From an uncultured Erysipelotrichaceae bacterium (GTDB lineage: Bacteria; Bacillota_I; Bacilli_A; Erysipelotrichales; Erysipelotrichaceae): a stretch of DNA of 63,160 nucleotides. The position numbers were made by a program, and so were the translations under genes. Numbering within the stretch: the first letter of the stretch is position 1; every line of letters begins with the position of its first letter. Below the pieces are notes generated by a model, which was not told where the DNA came from, ran no database searches, and saw nothing but the letters and a program-made list of their open reading frames with translations. Location: NCBI GenBank assembly GCA_944326095.1, contig CALVCO010000003.1, positions 1 through 63,160 of the forward strand. Direction: 5' to 3'. This document shows, in pieces, positions 8,548 to 56,779 of this stretch.

Positions 8548-9651
8548 ATGAATAATTATAAAATTTTAGTAATAAATCCCGGTTCAACTTCTACTAAATT
8601 ATCACTATTTATCAATGATAAGCATATAAATACCACCGACGTATTTCACGATTCAAGCATCTTAAAAACTTTTAAAACTATTAATGATCAATTACCCTAT
8701 CGCATGCAAGTAGTAGAACAATTTATTAAGGATAATAAGATTGATCTTAGCAATCTAGATGCTATCGCCAGTAGAGGAGGTCCATGCTATCCCGTAGAAA
8801 GTGGAACTTATGAAGTAGATGATAAACTAATAGAAGATACCAAAAATTCTAAAGGAGGCCTATATCACTCTTCAATGTTAGGAGTCCAAATGGCTAAATT
8901 AATCCAACAAAAATATGGCGGTAAGATTTTTATGAGTGATCCTACCGTCGTCGATGAATATAATGATTTAGCTAGAGTTACAGGTATCGATGGAATCTAT
9001 CGTAAAGCCATCTGCCATGCCTTAAATTTAAAAGCAGTTGCCAAAAAATATGCCAAAGATATTAATCGCAATTATGAAGATTTAAAATTAATCGTATGTC
9101 ATATCGATGGAGGCATTACTATTACTGCCCATGATCATGGAAGAATGATTGATGGTAATGATGGAGGTGGAGGTGAAGGACCTTTTACCCCAACAAGAAT
9201 GGGAAGCATGGCTATAACTGATGTAATAAATAATCTTTGGGATAAATCTAAAGAAGAAATGTTAAACCTATGTAGTTGTACTGGTGGATTATCTAATTAT
9301 TTTGGAACATCTAATTCTGATACTATTCATCAAATGATTGAAGATAATCCTAAAGCTAAGCGTGTTTGGCAAGCCATGATTTATCAAATTTGTAAATATA
9401 TTGGCGCCATGAGTACAGTATTAAAAGGTCAAGTAGATGGTATTGTCTTAACTGGAGGTCTAATGCGTTTTAATGATATCTATGAAATGATTAATGAACA
9501 TTGTGCATGGATTGCTCCAATTAAAGTATATCCAGGTGAGTATGAACAAGAAGCTTTAGCTTTAAATGCTCTAGAAGTTTTACAAGGTAAAAAAGAACCA
9601 AAAAAATATTTAGGAAAGCCTATATGGGAAGGCTTTAATGACAAAAGGTAG
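8548..9651 (+). CDS. buk: Butyrate kinase
   Basis: A 367-residue acetate/butyrate kinase-family protein that interconverts butyryl phosphate and butyrate with ATP. It starts with the ASKHA phosphate loop NPGSTSTKLSLF (9-20) and has ICHALNLKAVA, VCHIDGGITITAHD and VLTGGLMRF, which are butyrate kinase landmarks rather than those of the longer acetate kinases. GGAGG precedes the ATG. No phosphotransbutyrylase gene is adjacent, so it could instead act on branched-chain acyl phosphates. It is divergent from galM. Confidence 0.9.
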   Translation: MNNYKILVINPGSTSTKLSLFINDKHINTTDVFHDSSILKTFKTINDQLPYRMQVVEQFIKDNKIDLSNLDAIASRGGPCYPVESGTYEVDDKLIEDTKNSKGGLYHSSMLGVQMAKLIQQKYGGKIFMSDPTVVDEYNDLARVTGIDGIYRKAICHALNLKAVAKKYAKDINRNYEDLKLIVCHIDGGITITAHDHGRMIDGNDGGGGEGPFTPTRMGSMAITDVINNLWDKSKEEMLNLCSCTGGLSNYFGTSNSDTIHQMIEDNPKAKRVWQAMIYQICKYIGAMSTVLKGQVDGIVLTGGLMRFNDIYEMINEHCAWIAPIKVYPGEYEQEALALNALEVLQGKKEPKKYLGKPIWEGFNDKR

Positions 9652-9666
9652 CATTCGCTACCTTTT
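9643..9666. terminator. Bidirectional terminator
   Basis: Perfect hairpin AAAAGGTAGC-attc-GCTACCTTTT between two convergent genes. It covers the stop codons of both, and each strand ends in T residues. Confidence 0.85.
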
Positions 9667-22799: not shown

Positions 22800-23324
22800 T
22801 TAATCCAATTCTAATGAAGGAGCACTATATTTACGAGTCTTAAACTCACTATCTAAAGCATATAAACCATGAGGATCACCACCAAATAATTTAAAGCGAT
22901 CAATCATTTCCATAGCATTTTTCTCTTCTTCACCTTGTTCATCAATGAACCAACTTAAGAATTTTTGTGCACGATAATCTTTAGTTTCTAAAGCTACTTC
23001 ATAAATATTATTAATTAAGCTTGTAACATATTTTTCATGCTTTAACGCTTCATTTAGTGGATCAATAAATTCTTTTAATTCAACATTTGGTTTAGCAATT
23101 GCTTCAAGTTTTACACTATGATCATTATTCTGTAAAAACTTAACCATTAACATTGCATGATCCATTTCTTCTTTAGCTTGAATTTCATACCAATTAGCAA
23201 ATCCATCCAAACTCTTATCATGATAATAATTAGCAAAATCTAAGTAAAGATAAGCTGAATAAAATTCCTTATTTACTTGATCATTTAACAATTCTACAAC
23301 TCTATTATTTAACATTTTCTTCAA
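22800..23324 (-). CDS. ftnA: Ferritin
   Basis: A 174-residue non-haem ferritin that oxidises and stores iron in a 24-subunit shell. Ferroxidase ligands are visible: the glutamate in NKEFYSAYLYLD, EIQAKEEMDHAMLM (ExxxH), and the later EQGEEEKNAMEMIDRF. It has the normal FtnA length and lacks the haem-binding methionine pattern of bacterioferritin. It is a single gene convergent with the AIM24 gene. Confidence 0.94.
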   Translation of the reverse strand: MKKMLNNRVVELLNDQVNKEFYSAYLYLDFANYYHDKSLDGFANWYEIQAKEEMDHAMLMVKFLQNNDHSVKLEAIAKPNVELKEFIDPLNEALKHEKYVTSLINNIYEVALETKDYRAQKFLSWFIDEQGEEEKNAMEMIDRFKLFGGDPHGLYALDSEFKTRKYSAPSLELD

Positions 23325-23395
23325 CTCCTTTTCTTTAACTTAATCTTATACTAATTATTATTTTTTACAAGAAATATGCTCACAAATGTATACAG

Positions 23396-25111
23396 TTAAA
23401 ATTTTAACTTATTCATAAAATCATTTAATTTATTTTCTTTAATTTTTAGTTCATTACGAGTTTTTACAACATCATCATTTAACTGTTGATATTTATTAAT
23501 AACTTCAAGTTGATTTTCTTGATCTATAACAGGAACTTCCATTGAATCTAAATTGTTTTTGGATACAACCGGAATAACACTACCTGTTTGTATTCTTTGA
23601 ACACATTGTTTTCCTAAATCGCAATTCAAAAAGCAATATAAATACATTGGAATTATATATTCTTGATTAGGACGAATAACTATTATATTTTCTGAAGGAA
23701 CAACTTTATTATTCTTTATGTTTTGAACTATCCCAACTTTATATCCTTTACCTCTACTAGATAACAAGACATCACCATCTTTTAACAAAAACTTTTCTAC
23801 TTTTTCTGAATCAGCATCAAATGTTTTTAAAAAATCATAATCTATTTTACCTTCTACAATGTCTCCTAATTTGAGAATGCTATAGTTGCCTTCACCTGAA
23901 TCTAGCTCAGTAAAGCTCTCTGTATTACATTGATACCCTCTAAATGTATATGCAATTTCTTTTAATGATTTTGCTTTTACAAGTAATATTTTATCTTGAA
24001 AATAGAATTTAGCACTAAGGCAAAAAGCTCTATCTCTCATTATAGTATCATTATTAATTTCAATATATTTTTCGCCTTTTATATTAATTAAGTTCATTAT
24101 AGCATCAACATCAATTGTTTTTCTTTTTTTATCAAGTTTAAAACATTTGGAACCATCAACAAACTTAACTGCATCATTATTTTGAGAAAAGACTACCAAA
24201 GAATAACTACCTAAAGACTCATGACTAGTTCCATAAGGTAGACTAATAACCATTTCAACTAATTTATTTTTAATTAATTTCATTCGATTTGTTCCGTCTA
24301 TTATATTATATAATGTACCTTCGTTCACTAAAACTACCGCTCTACCACCATCTTTGAAGGAATTAATTGCTTTTTCAATAAACCCCCAATCAGCTTTATT
24401 TTGTATATTCTCAAAATGAATTCTAGGATTTATATCTTGCTTTATTTCTCTTGGATTTTTCTCATTCCTTGAAAAATCACAAAAAACTAAATCATATTCT
24501 CTATCTAATGATTGTGAAAAAGCAAACTCATTTTCTAAATACTTATACCCTACATTTATTAAATATAATCTTATTACCAAAACTAAATTTGTACTATAAT
24601 GTTTTTCTATTCCACGAATACTTGCATTAGGATATTTTTGTATCATTGAACTCAGAAAATTACCATTACCCGAACAAATATCCAAAATAGATTTTATCTC
24701 TCTATTATTGGTAAGCCTATATACTAATTCTACAATATCATATGATGTTAGATTCATCCTACTTTCTATTGGTAACATATCTTGGCTGTACAAAGATCTA
24801 GTTATCAAATCATATAAATCTACTAAAGAATAACGTTGTAATTCCTTATAAAGTGTTACTGCTTCTTCTCCTGGGGTAACTAATCCACAAAGCATTATTC
24901 TCATTACCAACTCTCTTTCTTCATTGGACACTAATCCAGAAAAATTCAACGCTGTATGATTAAATCTCTCTCTGTTTGTAAAATCTAAATCTGCATTTAA
25001 GTCATACTTTTTCTTTAAAAGAGTCAAAAAACCAACACCCACAACTTGCTCAATCACATCAAATTTTCTATGACCAGAAGCTAAGAAACCAAATACATTT
25101 TTTTCTATCAT
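23396..25111 (-). CDS. N6-DNA-methylase-like and specificity-subunit fusion, catalytic motif IV missing
   Basis: A 571-residue protein. Residues about 100-330 look like a type I HsdM methylase core with SAM motif I LDICSGNGNF (143-152). Where the catalytic NPPF/Y should be, after YDLVF (about 206-210), the sequence reads CDFSRNEKNP, so methyl transfer is doubtful. Residues about 370-571 resemble a single HsdS target-recognition half (YSILKLGDI, GDVLLSSRG, LYCFLNCD, QTGSVIPVVSKNNLDSMEVPV) ending in a helical spacer. No hsdR lies nearby. It may be a DNA-binding regulator or a decayed methylase. Confidence 0.72.
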   Translation of the reverse strand: MIEKNVFGFLASGHRKFDVIEQVVGVGFLTLLKKKYDLNADLDFTNRERFNHTALNFSGLVSNEERELVMRIMLCGLVTPGEEAVTLYKELQRYSLVDLYDLITRSLYSQDMLPIESRMNLTSYDIVELVYRLTNNREIKSILDICSGNGNFLSSMIQKYPNASIRGIEKHYSTNLVLVIRLYLINVGYKYLENEFAFSQSLDREYDLVFCDFSRNEKNPREIKQDINPRIHFENIQNKADWGFIEKAINSFKDGGRAVVLVNEGTLYNIIDGTNRMKLIKNKLVEMVISLPYGTSHESLGSYSLVVFSQNNDAVKFVDGSKCFKLDKKRKTIDVDAIMNLINIKGEKYIEINNDTIMRDRAFCLSAKFYFQDKILLVKAKSLKEIAYTFRGYQCNTESFTELDSGEGNYSILKLGDIVEGKIDYDFLKTFDADSEKVEKFLLKDGDVLLSSRGKGYKVGIVQNIKNNKVVPSENIIVIRPNQEYIIPMYLYCFLNCDLGKQCVQRIQTGSVIPVVSKNNLDSMEVPVIDQENQLEVINKYQQLNDDVVKTRNELKIKENKLNDFMNKLKF

Positions 25112-25451
25112 TTTATCGCCCTCCTATTTATAAGGTATCTATGTGTACCTTATTAAAAATTAGCAAAAAACTAAATTAATCAAATTAACCTCTCATCAAT
25201 TTTTGATCTACACTCTAATAATTAGCATTAGTCCTTAGCTTTTCCAAATTTGTATAACTAAATGTTTTGACATAATTTCTGGGACGCTTTATCGATATAA
25301 CACTCATGCATATCAAATGTATAAAGGATTTTTTGCATTCAACGCTAATTTTCTTCAATAAATGCCATTTTGTCCTTTACTTATTACTAAAGGAATAGTA
25401 AAGTTCTTCTTATCTTTTATTTTAACTACTAGTAATTTTTAACATTATAAA
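25112..25451. other. 340-nt gap without a supportable gene
   Basis: Very AT-rich, with no open frame that resembles a protein. It probably holds the promoter of the methylase-like gene at its left end. Short minus-strand stretches that translate sensibly are broken by several stops and could be a worn-out coding remnant, but I cannot name it. Confidence 0.3.
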
Positions 25452-25497
25452 ACCCCTTATAGCAAACATAATTTATATAATTCTAACTATAAGGGGT
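25452..25497 (-). terminator. Terminator of the chbG-glycerate kinase operon
   Basis: Eleven-bp perfect stem ACCCCTTATAG / CTATAAGGGGT just after the glycerate kinase stop, with TTTT on the minus strand. Confidence 0.8.
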
Positions 25498-25504
25498 ATT
25501 TTAT

Positions 25505-26629
25505 TTAAATCTTTAAAAATCGAATAATACGATCAACTGCCAAAGTTAAATTATATTCACGTCTATCATATATACTTTTATCATCCATAGGATAAGTAAC
25601 TGTAGACTCTACAGCACAAATACCTAACTCATAGATTTTTTCAAATCCAGGTTTAACAATTCCACCAATCGCAATACACGGAACACTAGCCCTTAAGCAA
25701 TGACTTGCAACTCCTTGAATCAATTTACCCTGACTACTTTGACTATCAATGCATCCTTCACCCGTAATTACATAATCAGCATCTTTGATGCATTCATCAA
25801 ATTTTATTTTATTAAGTACATATTCTATACCCATTTGAATATTTGCATTAAACAAGGCACTTAGGGTTGCTCCAACTCCTCCAGCTGCTCCTCCTCCAAT
25901 AATTTTAGATAAATCACAATTAGTTTTATTAGATAATATAGAAACTACATTCTTTACTCCTTCTTCATAAAATGCTAATTGTTCTTTTAATATTCCTTTT
26001 TGAGGACCAAATACATAAGTAGCACCATTTTCTCCTAAAATTTTATTTTGAACATCACTAAGAATATTTAACTTTAAATCAGAATATTTCTCTTTAATAA
26101 TGGATATATCAATATCTTTAATATCAATTAGATTACTAGAAGTAACTTTTTTAATATTACTTTCCCAAGTAAAGATTGCTCCTAAAGCTTCTAATATACC
26201 CATTCCAGCATCATTTGTAGCACTACCACCTAAAGCCAATACAATATTATGAATACCTTTTTTATATAGATAATCAATTAACATTCCTGTACCATATGTT
26301 GAAGTAAATTCAAGATTTTTACCTTTAGTAAAAGACAATCCACTTGCTTCAGCAATTTCAATATATCCTGTTTCATTAATAATTCCAACTTTAGCTTTTA
26401 TAGGATTAAATAAAGGATCCACTACATCAACATATTCATATATACCATCATTTGCTTCAATTAATGACGCTATAGTACCTTCACCACCATCTCCTATAGA
26501 AAAAGTTTCAACAATACTATCTGGTATTCTTTGAATTATTTGCTTTTTTACAATATCTGCTGCTTCTCTACTTGTAAAAAAACCTTTAAAAGAATCCATT
26601 GCTACTATAATTTTTAATCTTGATTTCAA
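25505..26629 (-). CDS. Glycerate kinase
   Basis: A 374-residue GlxK/GarK-type glycerate kinase that makes 2-phosphoglycerate from D-glycerate and ATP. Landmarks are MDSFKGFFTSREAAD at the start, SIGDGGEGT, LALGGSATNDAGMG (nucleotide loop) and DYVITGEGCID. It overlaps the upstream chbG-like gene by 4 nt (ATGA), so the two are translationally coupled. The pairing hints at use of a sugar acid or a deacetylated sugar breakdown product, but no linking enzyme is present. Confidence 0.92.
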   Translation of the reverse strand: MKSRLKIIVAMDSFKGFFTSREAADIVKKQIIQRIPDSIVETFSIGDGGEGTIASLIEANDGIYEYVDVVDPLFNPIKAKVGIINETGYIEIAEASGLSFTKGKNLEFTSTYGTGMLIDYLYKKGIHNIVLALGGSATNDAGMGILEALGAIFTWESNIKKVTSSNLIDIKDIDISIIKEKYSDLKLNILSDVQNKILGENGATYVFGPQKGILKEQLAFYEEGVKNVVSILSNKTNCDLSKIIGGGAAGGVGATLSALFNANIQMGIEYVLNKIKFDECIKDADYVITGEGCIDSQSSQGKLIQGVASHCLRASVPCIAIGGIVKPGFEKIYELGICAVESTVTYPMDDKSIYDRREYNLTLAVDRIIRFLKI

Positions 26630-32792: not shown

Positions 32793-33992
32793 TTAATCCT
32801 TTTTTTGACAATATTTTAACGCTGGTATCAGTACATCATTTAACGATAATGTAGTTTCACGAAATAAATCAGAAGGATATAATTGATCCATAGCAAAAAC
32901 AACACTATGTCTAGCTCTAGTGCAAGCAACATAAAACTTTGCTATTGTTTGTTTTGAAGATATTTTTTCTTGTTTGGTTATAAAGGGAATGACTGTTGAT
33001 ACAGGAATTATTACAACTCTATCAAATGTACAGCCTTTAGAATTACCATAATTTAACACATTACATGAATGTTGGAAATTAATCTCTTTTGTATTTTTGT
33101 ATCTTAAAATAGTAGGGTTGTAATAATCACAGTATTCTTTCATATACTTATTTTCAATAATATAAACTCCTACATTATCTTTCACAGCATATTTATTTTT
33201 TTCATAAGGAATTACAAAAGATTCACTTTCATTATAAATTGTATTAACAAAATTGCATATTTCTTGATTAAATCTTCTTGTTTCATTTGAATAGCTAATT
33301 TTACATAAATTAATTTTTTCAAGTTCTTTGAAAAAATGCCTTATTTTTTCATCACGAAATTTTTTGTTTTTTAATGAATTATTTGTTCTAAAAGTAGCTT
33401 GTTTATAGTCTCCAACACAATTTATTACAATACTCGAATTAAACAATAATTTAAAAATTTCTAAATCCCATCCAGCATAATCCTGTAATTCATCAATAAA
33501 AATATAACTATATATTTCTTCTAATCGTTTAATAACCGCTCCGTTGGAATCATTTACACATTTAATTGCTAAAGCTGTTACATTATCTTTATATAAATCA
33601 TTAGCACCATTTAAATAATATTGAACATGATTGCTATTATACCATCTTTCAGGTTTTTCATCGGAATAAAAAGCTATTGATTCTATAAAATTTGGCGGTA
33701 ATTCAAATTCACGCTCTTGTTTTAATATTTTATATTTTAATAATAGTTGACATTGATATGGTTTAATAAATTCTGAAAGAATAAAACTATACCAAGTTTT
33801 TATAATAATCTTTTTATCAATAACTCCGCTATTTTGCTTTCGATATTCATTCTCAATGCTATTTTTCCCTTCATTAGTATAAGAAATAATTAATATTTCC
33901 TTATGTGTGGTTTGCACAAACTGTATAGCTTGTTTACACAAATCATATGTTTTTCCATTTCCAGCTGCAGCAAAAACAACTTTATTATTCAT
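32793..33992 (-). CDS. Gabija GajB-like UvrD-family helicase
   Basis: A 399-residue superfamily 1 helicase. Visible motifs: Walker A AAAGNGKT (8-15), motif Ia SYTNEGKNSIE, motif II IFIDELQDY, motif III GDYKQATFR, motif V NYGNSKGCTFDRVVI and motif VI FYVACTRARHSVV. It overlaps by 8 nt the gene for an OLD-type ATPase nuclease, which is the Gabija anti-phage pairing (GajA then GajB). It is shorter than the ~490-residue reference GajB, so this is either a compact variant or a related two-gene system. Confidence 0.75.
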   Translation of the reverse strand: MNNKVVFAAAGNGKTYDLCKQAIQFVQTTHKEILIISYTNEGKNSIENEYRKQNSGVIDKKIIIKTWYSFILSEFIKPYQCQLLLKYKILKQEREFELPPNFIESIAFYSDEKPERWYNSNHVQYYLNGANDLYKDNVTALAIKCVNDSNGAVIKRLEEIYSYIFIDELQDYAGWDLEIFKLLFNSSIVINCVGDYKQATFRTNNSLKNKKFRDEKIRHFFKELEKINLCKISYSNETRRFNQEICNFVNTIYNESESFVIPYEKNKYAVKDNVGVYIIENKYMKEYCDYYNPTILRYKNTKEINFQHSCNVLNYGNSKGCTFDRVVIIPVSTVIPFITKQEKISSKQTIAKFYVACTRARHSVVFAMDQLYPSDLFRETTLSLNDVLIPALKYCQKKD

Positions 33993-35601
33993 CCGAGTTT
34001 ACTCCAATAGCCTTTCTAATATATTTTGGATATAATATTTTTTCTTCACTTAGGAATACTCTCATTGCCCACTCTGTTTTATTATTTGTCATAAATTTGC
34101 AAAGACCATCATAGTCAAGCTTTTGATTTCCTTTATATATTATTCTTTTAAAATTAACAAAGTTATTTTTATTTTCATTCAACACAGATGGTTCCAATGT
34201 ATTAAGATTATCATCTTCTTCAACACATAAAATAACAATATTTTTATATTCTTCAAATTTATTTTTAACAGTTGCTAGTGATCCATCATTATCAGTAACA
34301 ACTACAATTTTCTTTTCTATTAATTTTGCTAGCTCACAATAATTTTTAAATGCAGTCCCATTAACCGCCATAACATCAATTCCATCATCTATTGGCAATT
34401 TAGAATATTCATCTAAATATGCTCGTTGAACAATTAACTCATCCGCTGGTCCTTCTACCAGAATAATTTTTTTAGCTAATAGCAGCCTTAATGTATTATA
34501 TCCAGGTAATTTCACAAAAAAATCATATGTTTCTCTTGGTAGATTTATAAAGGGTTTAACGTTTTTGTTTGATACTAAATGTAAATTATTTAACCCTAAT
34601 TTATTGGCAACAAAACTACTATGTGTTGAAATAAACAATTGTTTATCCTTATTATTTGAAAGCTTAGAAATAAGAATTGACATATTGGAATAAGATAAAT
34701 TGTTTTCTGGTTCTTCTAGCATCAAAAAATCCACCTCAATATTTTGATTAAAAACCAATTCAGACTTTATCATATTTTGAGTTCCAAACCCAATATTTTC
34801 AAACGGAATTTTATCAACAGATAACGACATTTCTTTTTTCCAGTCGTCAATTTCACCTTCTCTTAAATTTACACTTATTTCTTTACTTCCAAATTTATAT
34901 TCATCTTTAATCTTAGAGTTTAATCTTGCTACTACTGGACTTTTTATAAAGTTCTTTCGATTACTTCTGAAAGCTAATCGTAAATTTGTCTCATCTTCTT
35001 TTGACAGATAATTAGCAAAGCTGTTAGAAACAAATCTATTTAGTACCGTACCATAATCTTTTTTTGTTGTATCAATAGATACTATTTTATTTGCAGTTTT
35101 TGTAAAGTAATATTCCGATTGAGCAAATGAACTAAACTCCACTTTATACAATTCTACCGGTATATCAATAACCTTCTTTTCTTCAAGAAGTTGTTTATAT
35201 GTCACACTATAATCATCATTAAATTTAATACTAAGCTTTACTCCAACTGCATCTTCTTTTAAAGAATTATTTGTTCCTTTATAATGATGAAAATAACTAT
35301 CTTTTTCTAAAAGTCCTTCAAAAAATATTTCAATGTCTATACTAGGCAAGTTTACGTTCTCACCTTTTTCTATTTTATATTTATAAAGATTTCTTGTGCA
35401 CAAATTAAACCATTCTGTATTTATTTTTGACATTATAGAAGAACCGTTAATTTTTCCAGTTAACCCCATTGACAATGCTTCTAAAATTGTAGTTTTCCCT
35501 GAATCATTTTCACCGACAAAAATATTAACATTCCTATTCATATCGATACAGATATAATCAAAAATCTTATAATTACGGATTATCAGTTTTGAAACGTACA
35601 T
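33985..35601 (-). CDS. Gabija GajA-like ATPase with TOPRIM nuclease domain (OLD family)
   Basis: A 538-residue defence nuclease. The N-terminal ABC-type ATPase has Walker A GENDSGKT (30-37), Walker B LMLEEPENNLS and the histidine switch ISTHSSFVANK. The C-terminal TOPRIM domain has IILVEGPADELIVQ (catalytic Glu), AVNGTAFKNY and VVVTDNDGS (DxD metal ligands). I start at ATG 35601, with GGAG 9 nt upstream, instead of an upstream TTG. In Gabija, GajA nicks foreign DNA when nucleotides are depleted. It heads a two-gene unit with the UvrD-like gene. Confidence 0.78.
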   Translation of the reverse strand: MYVSKLIIRNYKIFDYICIDMNRNVNIFVGENDSGKTTILEALSMGLTGKINGSSIMSKINTEWFNLCTRNLYKYKIEKGENVNLPSIDIEIFFEGLLEKDSYFHHYKGTNNSLKEDAVGVKLSIKFNDDYSVTYKQLLEEKKVIDIPVELYKVEFSSFAQSEYYFTKTANKIVSIDTTKKDYGTVLNRFVSNSFANYLSKEDETNLRLAFRSNRKNFIKSPVVARLNSKIKDEYKFGSKEISVNLREGEIDDWKKEMSLSVDKIPFENIGFGTQNMIKSELVFNQNIEVDFLMLEEPENNLSYSNMSILISKLSNNKDKQLFISTHSSFVANKLGLNNLHLVSNKNVKPFINLPRETYDFFVKLPGYNTLRLLLAKKIILVEGPADELIVQRAYLDEYSKLPIDDGIDVMAVNGTAFKNYCELAKLIEKKIVVVTDNDGSLATVKNKFEEYKNIVILCVEEDDNLNTLEPSVLNENKNNFVNFKRIIYKGNQKLDYDGLCKFMTNNKTEWAMRVFLSEEKILYPKYIRKAIGVNSDE

Positions 35602-35852
35602 TCCTAACAACTCCTTTTTATTATATTCTAAATACTTTAAATGATATTATTTCTCTATATTACACTTTTTTAAAAATTCATAAAAATATAATTATATTTT
35701 ATATTTTTGATTTAGTTCATTATCGTTATTTTCTAAAAATAACCCCTCAATTTTTTTCAAAAACTATTACATAAATTATTAAATAAATAGTAACGTTTTT
35801 ACGCAATATTCTTTTTTAAGAATAATAATTATTTTAATTTATATCTTTTTCA
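35602..35852. other. AT-rich gap
   Basis: About 250 nt of very AT-rich sequence with no gene. It likely contains the promoter for the Gabija-like pair at its left end. Confidence 0.4.
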
Positions 35853-36620: not shown

Positions 36621-39600
36621 TTATCTCATTACTTTTTCTAATAGCGTCTGATAACTATCAACTACATCATAAATAACATTTCCATTTGATATTGCTTTAA
36701 AATGCTCCCTAGCACAATGAATTTTAGATTCTTCTATCAATCTAAGTTGCATAGAATTCATTGATCCTTTTGTTTCTGCAACAAAATAAATATGTTTTAC
36801 TGTGCCTTCATAAAATGCTATTGCCCAATCGGGATTATATTTACCAACTGGAGTTGAAATATAAAACCCCTTAGGAAGCTTTACATATACTGCAACATTT
36901 TTACTTGTATCTAATTCAGAAGCAAAAGACTTTTCATTCGTCGAATCATATACAATATGATCATATAAATGTTTGTTTGCTTTCATTGCATTCACACCCA
37001 AACGTCCTTTAATTGTTGGATCCGTGAAAACTTCTATTCCATATTTTTCATCAGTGATGTTATAAGTAATATGCTCGATAATAGCAGTTGCTTTTTCATC
37101 ATTAATTAGTGATGCAGCTTTAATTATAAATTCTTCTGGATTGTCTTTGAATTGATTAAAAGTCTCTGGTTGAATACCTTGAAGAATTCTAATTATTGTT
37201 TTTCTTGTAAGTCCTGTTTCATCAACAAGTTTTCCAATTAAATCATACTTAACATTAGAGCTAACTTTTATAACATTTCCATAATTTGAAGATTCTTCTC
37301 TAACAAAAGATGTTCCACTTATAAGTTCTTCTTTAGATTTTATCTGTTCCATTGTTCCAGTTTCAACTTTGAAGAAAATTTTTGGAACATGAAGTTTTCT
37401 ATCTAATGAATTAATAGATTTTCTAATCAATTCATCAGTATCAAAATCAACAACATAAACTGATTTTGAATTAATTTTCTCCCACAATGCTTTAAACTCA
37501 GGCATAGCAAGTTTATTGTCATCAACCTTTAACTCAACATTATTACTGCGAGCATTTTCAGGTTGCATTAAACGACTATCATAAATAGAATCAATAATTT
37601 CAATAATGGATGCAGAAGAATCAGCTACTTCTTCAGCAACTTTCAATTCTCCATTTGCTTTATCATCATAGTATTTATCTGTAAGTTCTCCCTTTTTATT
37701 GATATATCCATTTATAATTAAATCAAAATGAATAGCTCTTCCTATATCATTATCGATAACTTGTTCATTTCCTTTATCATCTTTAATAACTTTTCCTATA
37801 AACAATTCAGGAGTAACAGCACGTGGTCGATCTGCTACTGCTTCTGCAATTTCAGTCTGAAGTCCTTTAGCAAAACTATCATAACTTTCACTTGCAATAA
37901 CTGTTAACACATTAACGTTATGAACATCATTTCCAAGAACATTTACATCCATACGTTCTCCATCTTGATTAACACAAAGACGAAGACCACGACCAACTTC
38001 TTGACGTTTTCTAACTTCACTACTGCTTTGTTTCAAAGTGCAAATTTGAAATACATTAGGATTATCCCAACCTTCTCGAAGTGCAGAATGAGAAAAAATA
38101 AATCTTACAGGAGATTTTTTAGGATTTCTATCTAGAAGAAGCTCTTTATTTTTCATAATAAGGTCATAAGCATCCACATCATTCGATATTTTTTCCTTTG
38201 AATTCTCACTTTTTTCATTTGCTTTACTATCAACCATTTTTCCTTTTTTATCAATAGAAAAATATCCAGCATGTGTTTTTGCTACAGGAATTGATTCTAA
38301 ATACTTCAAATAATCATCTTCTCCTAATTCAATTTGCAAATGATTAATTATGTCATTATATTCTTCCTCAAACATATCAGCATATATACCATTAATAGGA
38401 TTTCCTGCTGCATCATACTGTTTATATTTAGCAACTTCATCAATGAAGAATAAAGAAAGAACTTTAATACCTTTATAAAACAATTCTCTTTCTCTTTGAA
38501 TATGAGAAAGAATAGTTTCTCTTATTTGAATGCGACGAAGTTGATCCTCTGAAACCTTACCAATTACATCACCTGCATAAATTTTAATGCCATTAATAAA
38601 TTCTACAGAATCATCACGCCCATCAATTTTACTTACAACAAAATTATTTTTATATTCCTCCATCTCCCCTGAATTATCATAAAGATTAAAGCCTTCTGAT
38701 ACAGTACGAGTAACTTTTCTAACACCTGTTGCACTTTTTACATCAAATTGAATTGTTGCTGTAGGTGCTGCTTTAGAAAGATTAATACTCTCTAAATAAA
38801 CATAGCTTTCAGTCCCAGTAGTACCTGATTCTGTAATACCCTTAACTGCAATTTTCTTTACAAGACGCTTATTATATGCTTCCATAGCATCTAAACGATA
38901 AATCATATTATAAATACTATCTGATTTATGAGTAGCAGAATAACGAAGTGTCATTAGAGGATTAAACTGTTTCAGATTTTCTTTTGTTTGTTTACCCTCT
39001 ACAGACTGTGGCTCATCAATAATCAAAATAGGATTAGTTTTTGCAATAATATCAATAGGACGACGAGAGCGAAACTCATCTAATTTCATAGTGATTCGCC
39101 TAGCATCTTTCCCTTTAGCATTAAATGCTTGAGAATTAATAATCATAACATTGATTGAATTGTCAGAAGCAAATCGATCAATTTCAGTAAGTTGCGCAGA
39201 ATTATAAATAAAGAAACGAATCTTTTTTCCATATTCTTCTGCAAAATGTTCTTGCGTTACTTGAAAAGATTTATATACTCCTTCACGAATGGCAACACTT
39301 GGCACAACAACAATATATTTACTCCAACCATAAGCACGATTTAACTCATACATAGTTTTAATATAAGTATACGTTTTACCAACACCAGTCTCCATCTCAA
39401 TAGTCAAATTATATCTACCTTCTAACTTTTCAGAAGGTTTAATTTGGTTAGCACGTTGAATTGCATTGATATGTTCTAAAACCAACCTATCATTTAATTC
39501 TGGAACTATTTTTTGATTGCTCCAGCCTGTGAAATCATCTTCTTCTGTTAAAGTTTGCTGATAATAACCCGAACCTCTATCCATCATATATGAAGGAGTT

Positions 39601-39683
39601 AAATATGGTTGCCCTGCAAACACATCTACTACAGCTTTCGCAGCATCTGCTTGAAATTTTTGATGTTTAAATTGTAGTTTCAT
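36621..39683 (-). CDS. Type III restriction enzyme Res subunit
   Basis: A 1020-residue helicase-nuclease. Superfamily 2 motifs: Walker A METGVGKTYTY (97-107), motif II LIIDEPQSVEG, SATHKSDS, and motif VI RQEVGRGLRLC. The C-terminal nuclease reads YNPDWAI...FVAETKGS, a PD-(D/E)xK active site. In type III systems Res moves along DNA and cuts after contact with Mod at unmethylated sites. Its ATG overlaps the stop of the DUF1016 nuclease gene by 4 nt, and the Mod gene lies just beyond. It is the last gene of the six-gene defence operon. Confidence 0.9.
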   Translation of the reverse strand: MKLQFKHQKFQADAAKAVVDVFAGQPYLTPSYMMDRGSGYYQQTLTEEDDFTGWSNQKIVPELNDRLVLEHINAIQRANQIKPSEKLEGRYNLTIEMETGVGKTYTYIKTMYELNRAYGWSKYIVVVPSVAIREGVYKSFQVTQEHFAEEYGKKIRFFIYNSAQLTEIDRFASDNSINVMIINSQAFNAKGKDARRITMKLDEFRSRRPIDIIAKTNPILIIDEPQSVEGKQTKENLKQFNPLMTLRYSATHKSDSIYNMIYRLDAMEAYNKRLVKKIAVKGITESGTTGTESYVYLESINLSKAAPTATIQFDVKSATGVRKVTRTVSEGFNLYDNSGEMEEYKNNFVVSKIDGRDDSVEFINGIKIYAGDVIGKVSEDQLRRIQIRETILSHIQRERELFYKGIKVLSLFFIDEVAKYKQYDAAGNPINGIYADMFEEEYNDIINHLQIELGEDDYLKYLESIPVAKTHAGYFSIDKKGKMVDSKANEKSENSKEKISNDVDAYDLIMKNKELLLDRNPKKSPVRFIFSHSALREGWDNPNVFQICTLKQSSSEVRKRQEVGRGLRLCVNQDGERMDVNVLGNDVHNVNVLTVIASESYDSFAKGLQTEIAEAVADRPRAVTPELFIGKVIKDDKGNEQVIDNDIGRAIHFDLIINGYINKKGELTDKYYDDKANGELKVAEEVADSSASIIEIIDSIYDSRLMQPENARSNNVELKVDDNKLAMPEFKALWEKINSKSVYVVDFDTDELIRKSINSLDRKLHVPKIFFKVETGTMEQIKSKEELISGTSFVREESSNYGNVIKVSSNVKYDLIGKLVDETGLTRKTIIRILQGIQPETFNQFKDNPEEFIIKAASLINDEKATAIIEHITYNITDEKYGIEVFTDPTIKGRLGVNAMKANKHLYDHIVYDSTNEKSFASELDTSKNVAVYVKLPKGFYISTPVGKYNPDWAIAFYEGTVKHIYFVAETKGSMNSMQLRLIEESKIHCAREHFKAISNGNVIYDVVDSYQTLLEKVMR

Positions 39684-40759
39684 CCATTTTCACCTCCATT
39701 TTCATCGTCTATTTGTTCTTGTAATAATTTTTGAAAATCCTCTTTACTAGGCAATACTGTTTCATATTTACTAGCAAAAATTTGTGAATTATCTTCTGGT
39801 AAAGTCATTTCTACAACCGCGTTGTTCTTATCTCTACAAAGTACAATTCCAATCGTTGGATTTTCATCTGGCAACTTAACCTGACGATCATAATAATGCA
39901 CATACATCTGCATCTGACCGATATCCTGGTGTTTAAGTTCTCCAATTTTCAAATCAAAAAGAACAAAGCAACGAAGAAGACGGTTATAAAAAACCAAATC
40001 AACCATGAAATGCTCTTCATTAAAAGTAAATCTTTCTTGCCTACCAACAAACGCAAAACCTGTACCAAGCTCTAAAAGAAATTGTTGTAAATGATCAATG
40101 ATTCGACTTTCTAGTTCAGTTTCTGAATAACATGGTAATTCTGGTAATCCTAGAAATTCCAACACATAAGGATCTTTCACAACATCCTTAGGATGTTCTA
40201 CTGTTTGTCCTTCCATAGCCAACCGATATACTTTATCCTTATCTGTACTAAGTGATAAGCGTTCATAAAGAGAACTGTTATACTGCCGTTTCAATTCGGT
40301 AAGGCTCCAATCATTTTTTGCCGATTCAATTTCATAAAAATGGCGTTCATCAACGTTAGAGATACGCATTAGTTTTAAATAATGTGACCAACTCAGATAA
40401 AATTTACGTCCAGTATTTGTTACAGGTAAATTCTTAGATTGGGGAAACACTGTTTCCCCAATTTGATCAACGGAGTAAACCACATAAAAACGACGCATTA
40501 GTTTAAGATTATCTACAGAATAACCTTTCCCAAAATTCTTCGTTAAATAAACAGATAGTTCATTTAAAAGTTGAGTTCCATAAGCAGCTCGCTTTGCACC
40601 ATGTTGTTCCTCTTCCACAATCATTCGACCTATCTCAAAATAAGCATAGACCATAGAAAGATTTACAGCTGTTTTCGCATTTTTTCTTGCTTGAGTAAGT
40701 ACTTCTGCAATACTTTCAAGAAAACAATGATCTATAGGAGTCAAATTATTTTTTTCCAT
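39680..40759 (-). CDS. DUF1016/YhcG-type PDDEXK nuclease
   Basis: A 359-residue protein of the YhcG family. The N-terminal DUF1016 domain (about 8-165) includes NLSMVYAYFEIGRMIVEEEQ and FGKGYSVDNLKLMRRFY. The C-terminal PD-(D/E)xK nuclease has HFMVDLVFYNRLLRCFVLFDLKIG with the expected D...DxK arrangement, then IGQMQMYVHYYDR. It sits between mod and res, 10 nt after mod and overlapping res by 4 nt, so it is an integral part of the restriction transcript. Its substrate in this setting is unknown. Confidence 0.88.
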   Translation of the reverse strand: MEKNNLTPIDHCFLESIAEVLTQARKNAKTAVNLSMVYAYFEIGRMIVEEEQHGAKRAAYGTQLLNELSVYLTKNFGKGYSVDNLKLMRRFYVVYSVDQIGETVFPQSKNLPVTNTGRKFYLSWSHYLKLMRISNVDERHFYEIESAKNDWSLTELKRQYNSSLYERLSLSTDKDKVYRLAMEGQTVEHPKDVVKDPYVLEFLGLPELPCYSETELESRIIDHLQQFLLELGTGFAFVGRQERFTFNEEHFMVDLVFYNRLLRCFVLFDLKIGELKHQDIGQMQMYVHYYDRQVKLPDENPTIGIVLCRDKNNAVVEMTLPEDNSQIFASKYETVLPSKEDFQKLLQEQIDDENGGENG

Positions 40760-40769
40760 ATTCTCCCCC

Positions 40770-42641
40770 TTAAATAACTTTTACTCTCGTATCAGGAGCA
40801 ATTAATTTAAATATTTCACCAACATTAATTTTTGATGGACTATCTACAAAACTGCTATCACGGAATACTGCACGAAGTGGTTTTTTCTTGGCAATTTCCT
40901 TGATTACACTCTCGGGTACATTCTCATCAAAACACGCAATCAAATCTCCATCGTTATAATTATGAACAGTGCATCCATCTATCTGCTCAGAACTATAAGG
41001 CAACGATAAAGGTAATCCCCATTCAAGCAAGCATCCAAATAATAAATCTAAATCAGTACGATCTGGTTTTATATTTGATTCTAATTGAGACAAAAATCCT
41101 TGAGAATAATCATTTGGACTATAGTAAACATCTGTCATATTTGAAGAATCTAACTTAAAAACTCGAAAACCAACATCTAAATCCAGCGTTGTAAGTGGAT
41201 TCTCTTCTTTAATTTTCTTTCCTGCACGACGAATGCGCTCTTTGCCAATATCTGATAAATTAGCGTAACCTTCTTTGGTTGCAACTGATTTTTCATCTAA
41301 AGGCTCATTAACTTGGACCATAATATATTTACATTTTTTGTTATTCTCCTCATTATATTTTAAAACTGCGTGAGCGGTTGTTGCTGAACCAGAGAAAAAA
41401 TCTAATACTAAATCATTTTTCGATGTTGCCAACTCAATTATTTTTTTTATAAAACCTACAGGTTTAGGAGTATCAAAAACTTTACTACCAAACAAATTCA
41501 ATATTTCTCTGGTTCCATCAGTTGCTGTTCCACAATCATCCCATAACGATTTAGGGGTAAGTCCTTTATCTTGAGCTTCTGTCAAAAATCTTTTAAGTTG
41601 TGGTTTACTATTCCCTGTTTTCCCAAAAATAATTCTATTATCAGCTAAAAAATCTAAAAACTCTTTTTCCCCAGTACGCCAACAACGTCCTTCTGGAGGC
41701 CAATATTCTATTCCTGTATTGGGATTTATTATACCATAAGTTAAATTAGGCCTTATGCCAGGGCTATCAAAAGGATCTGCTTTCCATGGACCTCTTGGAT
41801 CATTATCTGGATTACCAAACCCTTCTCCAACATCTGGTAACTTAAATTCTGACTTATTTGCGTAAAATGTTGTCATATTTTTTGCGTATACTAAAGTATT
41901 ATTGTGATTTAAAGAAACAACAGCATCATTAGAAACTGATTTTCGTGAATTCCATATAATTTCGGCTACAAAATTACTCTCTCCAAACACTTCATCACAA
42001 ATTTTTCTCAAATTATGTACTTCATTAACATCTATTGAAATAAATATAGTTCCAGTTTCACACAATAAATTTCGTGCTAAAATAAGTCTAGAGTACATCA
42101 TTGAACACCAATCCGAGTGGTACTTGCCCGCTGAAGAGCTATTTTCTCTAAAAAAATTAACATTCCCATCATCATCAAAATATCCAGTACCCTCATTATA
42201 ATCCTCGTTATCCATAATGAATGAATCAGGATAAACAAAATCGTGCCCTGTGTTATATGGAGGATCAATGTAAATGAGCTTTACTGAATTTAAGTAACTT
42301 TCTTGTAAAAGCTTAAGTACTTCCAAATTATCTCCTTCTATATAAAGATTTTCTGTATTATCCCAGTCTACACTTTCTTCTCTACAAGGCCGCAATGTTT
42401 TTCTTATAGGTTTATTAGATTCAACAATAGAGGCCTTTTTCCCAACCCATGTAAATTCATATGCCTCATCTCCATCAATTATATCTTCAGACAACATTTG
42501 TTTTAAGACTTCAAAATTAATAGCTTTTTTCAGATTTCCATTTTCATCCTTCGTTTCAGTAATACAGTTTGGAAACAAATTGCCTATTTTTTCTATATTT
42601 TGATTGGTCAAATCAACTGATTTCATTTTCATTTTTTCCAT
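40770..42641 (-). CDS. Type III-like DNA methyltransferase (Mod)
   Basis: A 623-residue beta-class N6-adenine or N4-cytosine methyltransferase. Catalytic motif IV is IDPPYNTGHDF (DPPY at 126-129) and comes before the SAM motif LVLDFFSGSATTAHAV, the beta-class order. The long region between them (about 230-400) is the target-recognition part. An N-terminal YIEGDNLEVLKLL is typical of type III Mod. AGGAT-type ribosome site precedes the ATG. It should both modify host DNA and guide Res. It follows the ATPase gene by 28 nt. Confidence 0.92.
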   Translation of the reverse strand: MEKMKMKSVDLTNQNIEKIGNLFPNCITETKDENGNLKKAINFEVLKQMLSEDIIDGDEAYEFTWVGKKASIVESNKPIRKTLRPCREESVDWDNTENLYIEGDNLEVLKLLQESYLNSVKLIYIDPPYNTGHDFVYPDSFIMDNEDYNEGTGYFDDDGNVNFFRENSSSAGKYHSDWCSMMYSRLILARNLLCETGTIFISIDVNEVHNLRKICDEVFGESNFVAEIIWNSRKSVSNDAVVSLNHNNTLVYAKNMTTFYANKSEFKLPDVGEGFGNPDNDPRGPWKADPFDSPGIRPNLTYGIINPNTGIEYWPPEGRCWRTGEKEFLDFLADNRIIFGKTGNSKPQLKRFLTEAQDKGLTPKSLWDDCGTATDGTREILNLFGSKVFDTPKPVGFIKKIIELATSKNDLVLDFFSGSATTAHAVLKYNEENNKKCKYIMVQVNEPLDEKSVATKEGYANLSDIGKERIRRAGKKIKEENPLTTLDLDVGFRVFKLDSSNMTDVYYSPNDYSQGFLSQLESNIKPDRTDLDLLFGCLLEWGLPLSLPYSSEQIDGCTVHNYNDGDLIACFDENVPESVIKEIAKKKPLRAVFRDSSFVDSPSKINVGEIFKLIAPDTRVKVI

Positions 42642-42669
42642 GATTATATCCTTTCTATTATGTTTATTG

Positions 42670-44871
42670 TCATAAAGATTTAACCCTTTGATATAAATTC
42701 AGTAGTTCTTCTATATCCATATCTAAAATGGGCTCATACATAAATGAATTAATATGAATATGTTCGGGGGTCATAATAATAACTTCATTAAGAACAGCCA
42801 CTTTCTCAGAATATCCGAACTGCTTATATCCATTAAATAGCTCACGAGTCTGATTTTTCGAATTATTAACACCATCCAGATATTCTGAATTCGATTTCAT
42901 TTGAGATTGTTTATTTTTATACCATTTAATTTGCCCAGTGTAACTTTTTATTTCAGAAATCATAAACTTCTCTGCTTTATGACGTATTCCGATTGCAAGA
43001 ATAATTTTGTTTTCCAATTCAATATCTGTATTAGTTATACCATCACAAATACAATAAAGATTATCTAGAACCGACTTAGTTAAATCAACTGAATCATCAA
43101 AATTATTAATCCCCATGTACTCCTTATACAAAGGTTTGATATCTCCAAATTTTATATCATGTGTATTAGATTTTTCATGTAACAAAGATGTCAAATACAC
43201 AAAATCTTTACCTGTTTTACTTACATCTTTATCTATTCCGTATTCAATTAAATTACGTACAAACGGAATCAGTGCAATAACATACTTTTCTGTAGGATGT
43301 TCTTTCCAATAATTGAACGGCTGCTTTTGATAAAATTCTTTTTTAAGTATCAATTCTTCATTATTTACATCTGCCATCAATCGGTATTCTCCATTAATTC
43401 CTAAACGACTTGATACAGTTCTATGAAAATCAAAATTATGTGTCAATATTAACATGTAGAAATTATTTTCTTGTGCTATCTCATATAAATACTCTATGAT
43501 GGCATATTTATTTTTATAATCAAATGAATCTGCAATATCATCAACAATCAATAATACTTCCTTACCTAATGCTTTCAATTGTTCTATATCAAAAATAATA
43601 TTTAATAGATATAACGCTCTTTTTTCTCCTTGACTTAAAGTGTTTAGTTCTTCGAGATGTTTTCGATCCATTGTTTTAGTATCTTTTCCATTTGTGAAAG
43701 TAAATTCTACATGTGGAACACTCTCTCCAATAATAGCTCCCTTTAAATTTGATACACTCATAGAAAAAGGAACTGAAAAACGTTGATCAAAAATATCCAA
43801 TGCTCTTTTCCATGGAGTATCATCTATCGGCATTGCATCTATAGCTTTAGAAAACTCACGATATTTATAACACAAATTATCAAAAATAATTTTATCCGAT
43901 TTTATATAAGAAGCCCAAATATTTTTTCGAAGAATATTAAGTTTATCAACTGAAAGATATTCAATTATTTCTGGATGAGTTTCAATAATATCTTTAAGAA
44001 TAATTCCTTTTGAATCACTAAGAAGTTTTTCAATTTCTTGGTATTCAGGCAATTGAATTATCTTAGTCTCAATTTCAGAAATTTGTCGATCAAGTTCGTT
44101 AATATTTGCCACTGATCCTTTTTCAGATAAATATAAGTGATTATCTTTAACAAAAAAATCATCTTTCTCTAAAGTTTTTCTAAGATCTTTTAATTTAGGA
44201 AGCGTTAAATGACCTTTCTCTAAAAAAGCAAAGGATTTATATATCTTTTCAGATGATGATACAAAATTAGAAATACCTTTTTGAAACTTTGAATCACATA
44301 TTTTATTTAACACTGTTGAATCAAAAATAGATGAATACGGTATATCATCAAGTTCAATTTCTGGAATATATGATTCTAAGATATCTAAGCTCAACAGAAT
44401 ACTATCATTCTTTAATTCAAAATCTTTAATGATTTGTGACTCTAACTCATATGCTGGCTTTCCTTGAGAAGTCTTTTTAATTTTTAAACCAGATTTTTTT
44501 TCAAGTAATTTCATAAATTGCTTATGAGTTTTAAGCACATCGTTCAATTGTTTTTGAATTTCCTCTTTTACTAGTAATGATGAAATATCAGATTCATAAA
44601 AACTCTCATAAGATTTAACTACAAACAATTGATCTCTATCAATTGATTTGCCATCTACTTGTACAGAAGCATTTCCATCATAACCAAATATTTTATCACC
44701 TATTTCATTTTCTTTACCTAGCTTTAATAACTGAAAAGTTTTGGCAAAAGAAGTTTTCATTAAACCATTTCTTGCATAAATAGAAAATACATTTCCCTTC
44801 GAGAAGTCAAATTCGTATTGTAATGATTCTATTCCGAAACAATTTTTAAAATTAATATTCAACTTATTCAT
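42670..44871 (-). CDS. SMC/RecF-like AAA ATPase of the defence operon
   Basis: A 733-residue ABC-type ATPase (AAA_13/PrrC-like class). The P-loop is atypical: YARNGLMKTSFAKTF, where the last glycine of GKT is methionine (M38, K39, T40). The middle (about 100-330) is helical, partly coiled-coil. The signature LSQGEKRALYLLN, Walker B EVLLIVDDIADSFDY and switch ILTHNFDF follow. Its ATG overlaps the DUF4391 stop by 4 nt. It could sense foreign DNA or act as a clamp for the methylase and helicase; no separate toxin domain is obvious. Confidence 0.82.
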   Translation of the reverse strand: MNKLNINFKNCFGIESLQYEFDFSKGNVFSIYARNGLMKTSFAKTFQLLKLGKENEIGDKIFGYDGNASVQVDGKSIDRDQLFVVKSYESFYESDISSLLVKEEIQKQLNDVLKTHKQFMKLLEKKSGLKIKKTSQGKPAYELESQIIKDFELKNDSILLSLDILESYIPEIELDDIPYSSIFDSTVLNKICDSKFQKGISNFVSSSEKIYKSFAFLEKGHLTLPKLKDLRKTLEKDDFFVKDNHLYLSEKGSVANINELDRQISEIETKIIQLPEYQEIEKLLSDSKGIILKDIIETHPEIIEYLSVDKLNILRKNIWASYIKSDKIIFDNLCYKYREFSKAIDAMPIDDTPWKRALDIFDQRFSVPFSMSVSNLKGAIIGESVPHVEFTFTNGKDTKTMDRKHLEELNTLSQGEKRALYLLNIIFDIEQLKALGKEVLLIVDDIADSFDYKNKYAIIEYLYEIAQENNFYMLILTHNFDFHRTVSSRLGINGEYRLMADVNNEELILKKEFYQKQPFNYWKEHPTEKYVIALIPFVRNLIEYGIDKDVSKTGKDFVYLTSLLHEKSNTHDIKFGDIKPLYKEYMGINNFDDSVDLTKSVLDNLYCICDGITNTDIELENKIILAIGIRHKAEKFMISEIKSYTGQIKWYKNKQSQMKSNSEYLDGVNNSKNQTRELFNGYKQFGYSEKVAVLNEVIIMTPEHIHINSFMYEPILDMDIEELLNLYQRVKSL

Positions 44872-45521
44872 AATATCGATAATTCCTTTCTGAGCTTTTT
44901 CAAATCGTTGTTCATTTCCATTTGTTTATTCAATTGTTTTTCTTTTCGAATTTTGTCTTGAAGCTTATCAATCTGTTTCTGCAACATCTTCTTTTTTTCA
45001 TCACGTTCAATTGATTCTTTTATGTCTTCTTCTGCATTTTTAATTGTTAAATTATCTCCTGCAATCTGTCTTACAAAGTTTTCATATACAGAATCAAGAT
45101 TTAAACCTTCTAATTTTAGTGGAAGTTTATCTTCAGATAACCAATCTGTATGATAATACTTACCAATTCTGAAAATGTTCTTTGAAGAAGATGACATTTC
45201 TTTGTATCCAATCCAAGCTTGATACTTTCCTTGATACTCTAACAAGAATAAAATATGATAAGGTATTCCCTTGTCGATTTGTCTTAATAAGCTTTCATCA
45301 AGTTCTGAATTATTTAATCGAACTTCAAACACTTCTAGTTCAGTTACATTTGTTCCAGGAGCTAGATTTGTTGTAGAAGCTGCAATTTTGTTTCTCCAAT
45401 AGATAATTTTCACTTGTTCAACAAAAATCTTTTTTAAATTTGGTGAGATATCCATATTTTCATAAAACTTTTGTTTAGGAATTCTCTTGTTAAATTCTGT
45501 TGTTTTTGGTAATCCAATCAT
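44868..45521 (-). CDS. DUF4391 protein
   Basis: A 217-residue protein matching the DUF4391 pattern: MIGLPKTTEFNKRIPKQKFY start, VKIIYWRNKIAASTTNL, VEVFEVRL-like strand, and YHILFLLEYQGKYQAWIGYKE. It ends in a charged helical tail. The family is found next to large helicases and methylases in defence islands, but its job is not established. It starts 14 nt after the helicase gene and overlaps the ATPase gene by 4 nt. Confidence 0.82.
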   Translation of the reverse strand: MIGLPKTTEFNKRIPKQKFYENMDISPNLKKIFVEQVKIIYWRNKIAASTTNLAPGTNVTELEVFEVRLNNSELDESLLRQIDKGIPYHILFLLEYQGKYQAWIGYKEMSSSSKNIFRIGKYYHTDWLSEDKLPLKLEGLNLDSVYENFVRQIAGDNLTIKNAEEDIKESIERDEKKKMLQKQIDKLQDKIRKEKQLNKQMEMNNDLKKLRKELSIL

Positions 45522-45535
45522 TATTTGACCTCCGC

Positions 45536-48757: not shown

Positions 48758-48816
48758 AATTATAGATTCCTCCAATATTATAATTAGTGTTTTAATATTT
48801 ATTATTTATAGTAACA

Positions 48817-56671: not shown

Positions 56672-56690
56672 AATTTTTTAGTTATAAATT

Positions 56691-56764
56691 GAGAGTGTAA
56701 AACAAACCGTGGCAAGTTAAGTTATGCGCGCTTTCTTAACTTACACGATTTATTTTACACTCTC
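56691..56764. repeat. 74-nt imperfect inverted repeat
   Basis: Twelve perfect pairs at the base (GAGAGTGTAAAA / TTTTACACTCTC), then AAA/TTT, CGTG/CACG and AAGTTAAG/CTTAACTT: 27 pairs around a 13-nt loop with GCGCGC. Each arm reads like an IS256-type terminal repeat, so this may be a fused pair of IS ends or a MITE. A structured RNA is the alternative. No target duplication is seen. Confidence 0.7.
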
Positions 56765-56779
56765 TAACTTTATATTATT

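Follow-up and report, generated by a model that had tools for sequence, protein, structure and literature searches.

The DNA analysed here is a 63,160 nt stretch from an uncultured Erysipelotrichaceae bacterium (contig CALVCO010000003.1), referred to below as the window. It carries a gene in which a degenerate HsdM methyltransferase is joined to half of an HsdS specificity subunit. The features of this locus are listed with the evidence on which each was called.

23396..25111, minus strand: degenerate HsdM - half-HsdS fusion, an intact ORF of 571 aa from ATG
24068..24748, minus strand: HsdM-like methyltransferase domain, residues 122-348 (Pfam N6_Mtase PF02384, E 1.1e-15; AlphaFold model against HsdM structures)
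23474..23971, minus strand: single HsdS target-recognition domain, residues 381-546 (Pfam Methylase_S PF01420, E 5.1e-7; model against Esub1)
24656..24682, minus strand: SAM-binding motif I, DICSGNGNF, residues 144-152 (sequence alignment)
24467..24478, minus strand: degenerate motif IV, D212-F-S-R215, where NPPF/Y belongs (alignment)
23402..23521, minus strand: 40-residue C-terminal helix, residues 531-570 (AlphaFold, pLDDT block means 91-97)
25119..25125, minus strand: likely ribosome-binding site AGGAGGG (sequence, by eye)
25130..25153, no strand: perfect palindrome ATAAGGTA-N8-TACCTTAT, candidate operator, at -42 to -19 from the start codon
23383..25505, no strand: variable segment with other genes in the sister genome G004 (comparison between the glycerate kinase and ferritin-like genes)

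The PF02384 and PF01420 matches are both over the Pfam cut-offs, and the best PADLOC models for the protein are type I specificity subunits. According to Pfam the chain holds just one Methylase_S stretch and not two recognition domains. The preliminary description of this gene had reported a motif I, a replaced NPPF/Y box and a target-recognition half fused behind the methylase. All three were borne out, with motif I read as DICSGNGNF at residues 144-152, PF01420 at residues 381-546, and the aligned tetrapeptide D-F-S-R in place of the box; the 'CDFS' given earlier begins one residue before it. At the motif II position the alignment has an acid, within RGIEK. As motif IV aligns as D-F-S-R, it has neither the proline nor the aromatic residue, and from its residues the protein is most likely catalytically dead.

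The AlphaFold model was built from 45 sequences and has a mean pLDDT of 79, with residues 1-61 poorly modelled; there is no helix-turn-helix domain among the Pfam matches of the protein, of which residues 1-61 are of low confidence in the model. The model matched the HsdM chains 7vru_B (Z 27.1, 272 residues, 2.9 A) and 3lkd_A (Z 27.4, 304 residues, 4.1 A) and EcoR124I chain 7bst_D (Z 22.9), and its residues 378-570 matched Esub1, 8vsr_B (Z 22.4, 185 residues, 2.8 A). The fold and domain order are thus the same as in solved HsdM/HsdS assemblies (PacII M1M2S, 7vru/7vs4; EcoR124I, 7bst), but the window protein combines them in one chain, has just one recognition domain and has lost the NPPF/Y box. 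The C-terminal helix of the model is a candidate dimerisation helix, through which two copies may pair.

The neighbours of the fusion gene encode a glycerate kinase (25505-26629, identified by Pfam) and a ferritin-like protein (22800-23324, judged by its sequence). The sister genome G004 shares 97% identity with the window across 6.8 kb to one side and 97-98% to the other; window 23383-25505 is replaced there by an ORF of 90 aa and one for a 279 aa protein (L172:7561-8400) that is KilA-N-like by eye. As other genes occupy the matching spot, the fusion is a lone cassette at a variable position, and the KilA-N-like protein in its place indicates that genes are swapped in the interval that separates the glycerate kinase gene from the ferritin-like one. 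A profile search of the window detected no hsdM- or hsdR-like gene near the fusion. The earlier statement that there is no hsdR nearby therefore holds for the window, but other contigs of the genome do carry type I genes: C49 has an hsdM with NPPF (Pfam) beside a Fic-like gene (by eye), and C74 an hsdS (Pfam) beside an hsdR-like gene (by eye). The fusion itself was detected once in this genome. None of the five other genomes of the genus has a full-length counterpart; four have only open frames of 334-352 aa which match within residues 104-349, and the fifth has no match. A peptide pattern search of genome contigs confirmed no close homologues of the window protein.

Other defence genes were observed on the minus strand of the window. 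A type III R-M island at 36621-48775, 11.5 kb from the fusion, contains Res, a YhcG/DUF1016 nuclease (PADLOC PDC-S02), a Mod methylase, a PDC-S46 protein, a DUF4391 protein and a helicase, and a Gabija-type pair at 32793-35610 consists of a GajB-like UvrD helicase and a GajA-like OLD/TOPRIM ATPase. A partly palindromic element of ~89 bp at window 56689-56779 is 94% identical to L172:9051-9140, in the ferritin/AIM24 gap of G004, and is possibly a small mobile repeat common to both genomes.

Whole-genome protein and profile searches, a scan of a species-genome collection (60 loci), plasmid records and a viral scan yielded 82 usable fusions. These were drawn from 84 loci, of which L042 and L153 were dropped as partial; L102, L136, L147, L150, L152 and L157 were left out as repeats and L043 and L091 as fragments. 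The phage relatives found are one short unannotated record and a viral contig locus, L162, which looks like a copy of L130. By record titles, the species-collection fusions come from Bacillota groups, coriobacteria, spirochaetes, Fibrobacter and Succinimonas, with further members in bins labelled Planctomycetes, Victivallaceae, Alphaproteobacteria and Saccharibacteria, which may be mixed. Homologues that were aligned to the window protein share 17-26% identity with it. The window protein matches the family profile, which includes it, over its whole length (E 2.5e-187), and the tree places it inside the family with L032 and L038 as its nearest relatives (support 0.89-0.96).

Lone copies were also observed in housekeeping regions. 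The L038 fusion (L038:7085-8701), from another genus, sits between ffh-like and rpsP-like genes, and in a second genome of that genus a fusion C-terminus lies at a contig edge before rpsP (L043:1-627). The recognition parts of these two are 19% identical over 125 residues, and the neighbouring rimM-like proteins 68%. At L088:6607-8295 a lone fusion is found among miaA-, rluB-, cmk- and der-like genes.

Motif IV reads as [NDS]PP[FYW] in two of the 82 aligned fusions, both NPPF, and the NPPF/Y box is present in all 55 HsdM neighbours of fusions (anywhere in the chain, not by alignment), so that its loss from the fusions is not due to chance. One of the two peptide patterns used in the species-collection scan spans motif IV and permits NPP, and the motif IV counts are therefore partly selected; among the fusions from whole-genome searches, with the window included, none of 24 has [NDS]PP[FYW]. 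More commonly the motif is [ND][YF]P[FYWLI] (50/82, exactly N-Y-P-F in 24/82), and N-x-P-[FYW] occurs in 34/82. The third-position proline is kept in 72/82 and is gone in the window protein and nine others. KsgA/Erm enzymes have the motif N-x-P-Y/F, which N-Y-P-F resembles, and the family as a whole need not therefore be catalytically dead. The preliminary description had named homologues with an intact NPPF/Y as a finding that would refute its proposal; they exist, but the other 80 of the 82 lack [NDS]PP[FYW]. The two NPPF-intact fusions, L139 and L141, come from an Olsenella record and a Coriobacteriaceae bin and, going by this motif, may be active methylases or a reversion.

The fusions commonly stand ahead of type I genes. 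In 54 of the 72 loci with at least 3 kb downstream, hsdM or hsdR follows on the same strand, and hsdM lies within 3 kb in 45. A partner of ~175 aa was detected in 40 of the 82 loci, nearly always overlapping the fusion gene or a few bases from it; it was not seen in 42, some of them cut by a contig end, and the window is among these. The profiles used to detect hsdM, hsdR and the partner were built from a few of the same loci. Two plasmids show the same arrangement in their public annotation, with the order fusion-hsdM-hsdS-hsdR in Lactococcus and fusion-hsdM-hsdS-helicase in Lactobacillus amylovorus, and both annotations name the fusion 'N-6 DNA methylase'.

Examples of the ~175 aa partner are L035:9422-9949 and L106:7604-8155, which have a conserved GPMPHS stretch. 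It matched no NCBIfam family at 0.01 (three tested) and no Pfam family over cut-off (four tested), and a Foldseek search for its fold gave no hit under E 0.001; the best, a RAD51 chain at 1.4e-3 with TM 0.28, was discarded. At L041:2015-4417, L086:7651-10107 and L173:2948-5365 proteins of 800-818 aa lie behind the fusion; the one that was scanned is an ADP-ribosylglycohydrolase domain joined to HsdM, and the others start alike.

Many fusion promoters carry two near-identical palindromes of 16-18 bp, commonly TGGTTAT-N2-ATAACCA. Pairs with arms of 7 and a centre of 2-4 were sought 38-100 bp apart and scored by palindromy plus the identity between the two copies, each region being compared with 100 dinucleotide shuffles of itself. 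This was done for the 81 of 82 fusions with enough upstream sequence, using other genes of the same loci as controls. At p<=0.01 a pair was found for 38/81 fusions and 3/184 controls (Fisher 7e-20), and at p<=0.05 for 48/81 and 13/184 (Fisher 2e-19), leaving 33/81 fusions with none at the latter threshold; an earlier way of scoring pairs gave 24/81 against 5/197 at p<=0.01. When the fusions are clustered at 50% identity, the 48 with pairs (p<=0.05) are spread over 30 of 56 clusters. Half-sites are most often TTGGTTAT or ATGGTTAT; AAGTTTAT, AGGATAT, TTGATTAT, TTGGTATT and AGGGATTT also occur. Pairs are more frequent at loci with type I neighbours than at those without (35/54 and 4/18, Fisher 0.0024).

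For promoter and Mantel analyses 49 loci were used (p<=0.1 and score>=21, with L154, L049, L162 and L138 dropped by hand). In 46 of these the best -35/-10 boxes are situated between the palindromes or overlapping them, in a search that was confined to this region and had no shuffle control, and an exact TTGACA is present in 34, again within the operator neighbourhood. The similarity of operators follows that of the recognition domains (Mantel r 0.571, p 0.0005) and also that of the methyltransferase domains (r 0.537). Part of the correlation between operator and recognition domain is shared ancestry; when made partial on the methyltransferase domain it is r 0.289 (p 0.0065). Across whole genomes, matches to the family operator with up to two mismatches were fewer than those to a control pattern in five of six (19/36, 13/22, 13/17, 17/42 and 25/56) and more numerous in G006 (27/17); among the matches listed, the exact ones are two in G006 and one in G182, all at fusion promoters.

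Homology between the recognition domain of a fusion and the HsdS of its own operon, through which the cognate enzyme could methylate the operator, was looked for and rejected. The fusion recognition domain matches the HsdS of its own locus at all in 8/82 cases, at 23-30% identity and never at 40% or above, with some loci having no HsdS. As the domain has no close match in its own operon, the R-M system itself probably does not recognise the operator as its target.

Paired palindromes were not found ahead of the window gene (p 0.81 in the shuffle test), nor in its nearest tree relatives, L032 and L038, by the same test. There is instead the single perfect palindrome at 25130-25153, in the place where homologues often have their second operator, although its N8 spacing differs from that usual in the family. 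Its single-palindrome p is 0.095, and as inverted repeats of equal strength are present within 70 bases of the start in 8 of 57 window genes, it is weak evidence by itself. The core AAGGTA-N8-TACCTT occurs without mismatch at two places in the 1.6 Mb genome, the other being 9645-9664, at the junction of convergent genes. A wider regulon was rejected, since with up to two mismatches there are 135 places in the genome compared with 169 for a reversed control, and so was a link to the genome's own hsd genes, as with up to three mismatches the two contigs hold 8 and 1 sites against 5.3 and 2.6 expected, which is the level of chance. The Fic-like gene stands before hsdM, and the intergenic region upstream of it holds no such site (up to three mismatches).

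On balance, we consider it probable that the window protein is a DNA-binding pseudo-methyltransferase, descended from HsdM-half-HsdS fusions that autorepress type I R-M operons. The computed architecture, the loss of the motif, the association with operons and the paired operators in about half of the family fit a regulatory role of the family well, as do the co-variation of the operator with the recognition domain and the finding that no other regulator family recurs among the largest protein clusters of operator-bearing loci. From these we infer that the fusion is a repressor which itself reads the operator, and that the orphan has kept this role. The preliminary description had proposed a DNA-binding protein made of type I parts, with a decoy, a regulator and an anti-phage sensor as examples, and for the family the regulator option agrees with the operons and paired palindromes; for the window orphan the role is an extrapolation from these homologues and a single palindrome.

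In such a mechanism the fusion would act as a dimer in which the C-terminal helices space the two recognition domains, in the manner of half-HsdS assemblies, and would bind the two 16-18 bp palindromes which bracket a sigma-70 promoter. The bound dimer would block RNA polymerase and so shut its own operon, comprising the fusion, often the ~175 aa partner, hsdM, hsdS and hsdR. Repression would then be lifted by some signal, for which the SAM level, a methylated or titrated operator, the partner and a phage protein are candidates; that motif I is kept suggests SAM. The window copy, which retains motif I and the recognition domain and has lost the proline and aromatic residue of motif IV, would have been acquired alone at a variable chromosomal spot. 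It probably still binds DNA, most simply at the 25130-25153 palindrome, and so would control its own gene; genome palindrome searches found no further targets.

The main rival to autoregulation is that the lone gene is the leftover of a mobile R-M operon, an open frame with no role. This would suit a gene that stands alone at a spot with other genes in the sister genome, that has no paired operators and no full-length counterpart in the five other genomes of the genus, and whose motif IV is without the third-position proline kept by 72/82. The 571-codon frame is nevertheless intact, with motif I, the recognition domain and the ribosome-binding site all kept, and a related lone copy is found in the ribosomal-protein region of another genus, with a C-terminal fragment at the corresponding place in a second genome. 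We regard a functionless remnant as rather unlikely.

It is also conceivable that the paired palindromes are read by some other regulator, and that the fusion serves the R-M complex in another way. The 14 largest protein clusters of the 48 pair loci, named by eye, bear on this: the sole cluster in all 48 is the fusion (which also absorbs HsdM), the partner is found in 29, HsdS-like proteins in 25 and HsdR-like proteins in 9 and 3, and beyond these no cluster, and no other regulator family, is in more than three. An XRE-like gene (by eye) does lie near the fusion in two of the 48, but the operator follows the recognition domain of the fusion even after allowing for the methyltransferase domain, and this explanation appears improbable. 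Slightly less credit is given to a decoy or anti-restriction subunit, which would join or compete with the genome's own HsdM/HsdS and so tune that system. An hsdM, an hsdS and an hsdR-like gene are present elsewhere in the genome, and the protein folds like HsdM joined to half an HsdS, but no homologue has a recognition domain that matches the HsdS of its operon at 40% or above, and many homologue promoters carry operators instead. The least plausible reading is that the gene encodes an active, solitary adenine methyltransferase whose motif IV is unusual, as D-F-S-R in the window protein has neither proline nor aromatic residue, even though motif I and the SAM acid are kept and homologues have N-x-P-[FYW] as in KsgA/Erm (34/82) or NPPF (2/82).

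Autorepression of R-M genes has precedents, from which the fusions differ in their parts. RptR of E. coli, encoded at the head of a type I R-M island, acts on its own promoter as a repressor via short palindromes, and 54 of 117 RptR homologues adjoin type I genes (PMC12255303). In the account given there it is a 9-kDa four-helix protein on TAGCTA repeats, with no methyltransferase or recognition domain, unlike the fusions and the 571 aa HsdM/HsdS fold of the window protein (PMC12255303). M.EcoRII, M.Ecl18kI and M.SsoII are described as methyltransferases that double as R-M repressors, in some cases independently of catalysis, but these are type II enzymes with a separate fused repressor domain (PMC12707154); in the fusions the recognition domain itself would read the DNA, in a dedicated degenerate paralogue. 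C proteins autoregulate through operators at their own promoters, and one precedes the hsd locus of Mycoplasma gallisepticum, but they are helix-turn-helix proteins, unlike the fusions (PMC12707154). On type I control, the passages of a 2025 review give two weak EcoKI promoters and one C protein (PMC12707154), to which RptR was added in 2025 (PMC12255303). In the literature searched (titles and abstract starts in one library) no description of a pseudo-HsdM-half-HsdS regulator was found, and the family is apparently undescribed.

We think it fairly likely that these proteins form an undescribed class of transcription factor, present in records of several phyla, in which a degenerate type I methyltransferase is joined to half a specificity subunit. 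Its recognition domain would read a conserved operator (TGGTTAT-N2-ATAACCA and variants) and restrain type I R-M operons, possibly sensing SAM or methylation via the pseudo-active site; from the orphans, and from Esub1, which was crystallised with Prx, it would seem that the switch has left R-M operons and that phages may target it. How type I R-M operons spare a new host is poorly known. If this reading is true, the repressor is made from the system's own parts, the operator, which records of several phyla share, predicts the controlled genes, and a swap of recognition domains should swap operators, which makes the question directly testable. Genes annotated as 'N-6 DNA methylase' ahead of hsd operons may then be regulators and not methylases.

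The closest solved relative of the recognition half is Esub1 (8vsq and 8vsr, 'Co-crystal structure of Prx with Esub1', E 1.2e-13), of which the solved chain covers the recognition half only. Esub1 is presumably a Streptococcus pyogenes protein, and Prx is taken here to be the prophage protein paratox. In the literature searched the word Esub1 occurs only in unrelated work, and never with 'methyltransferase'. Relatives of the Esub1 stretch, 31-43% identical, are present in seven of 395 genomes, and five of these are the C-terminal halves of fusions (L041, L078, L084, L086 and L087). As its relatives are fusion C-terminal halves in at least five cases, a phage protein may target the fusion family. 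The other two relatives lie in open frames of 540 and 543 aa.
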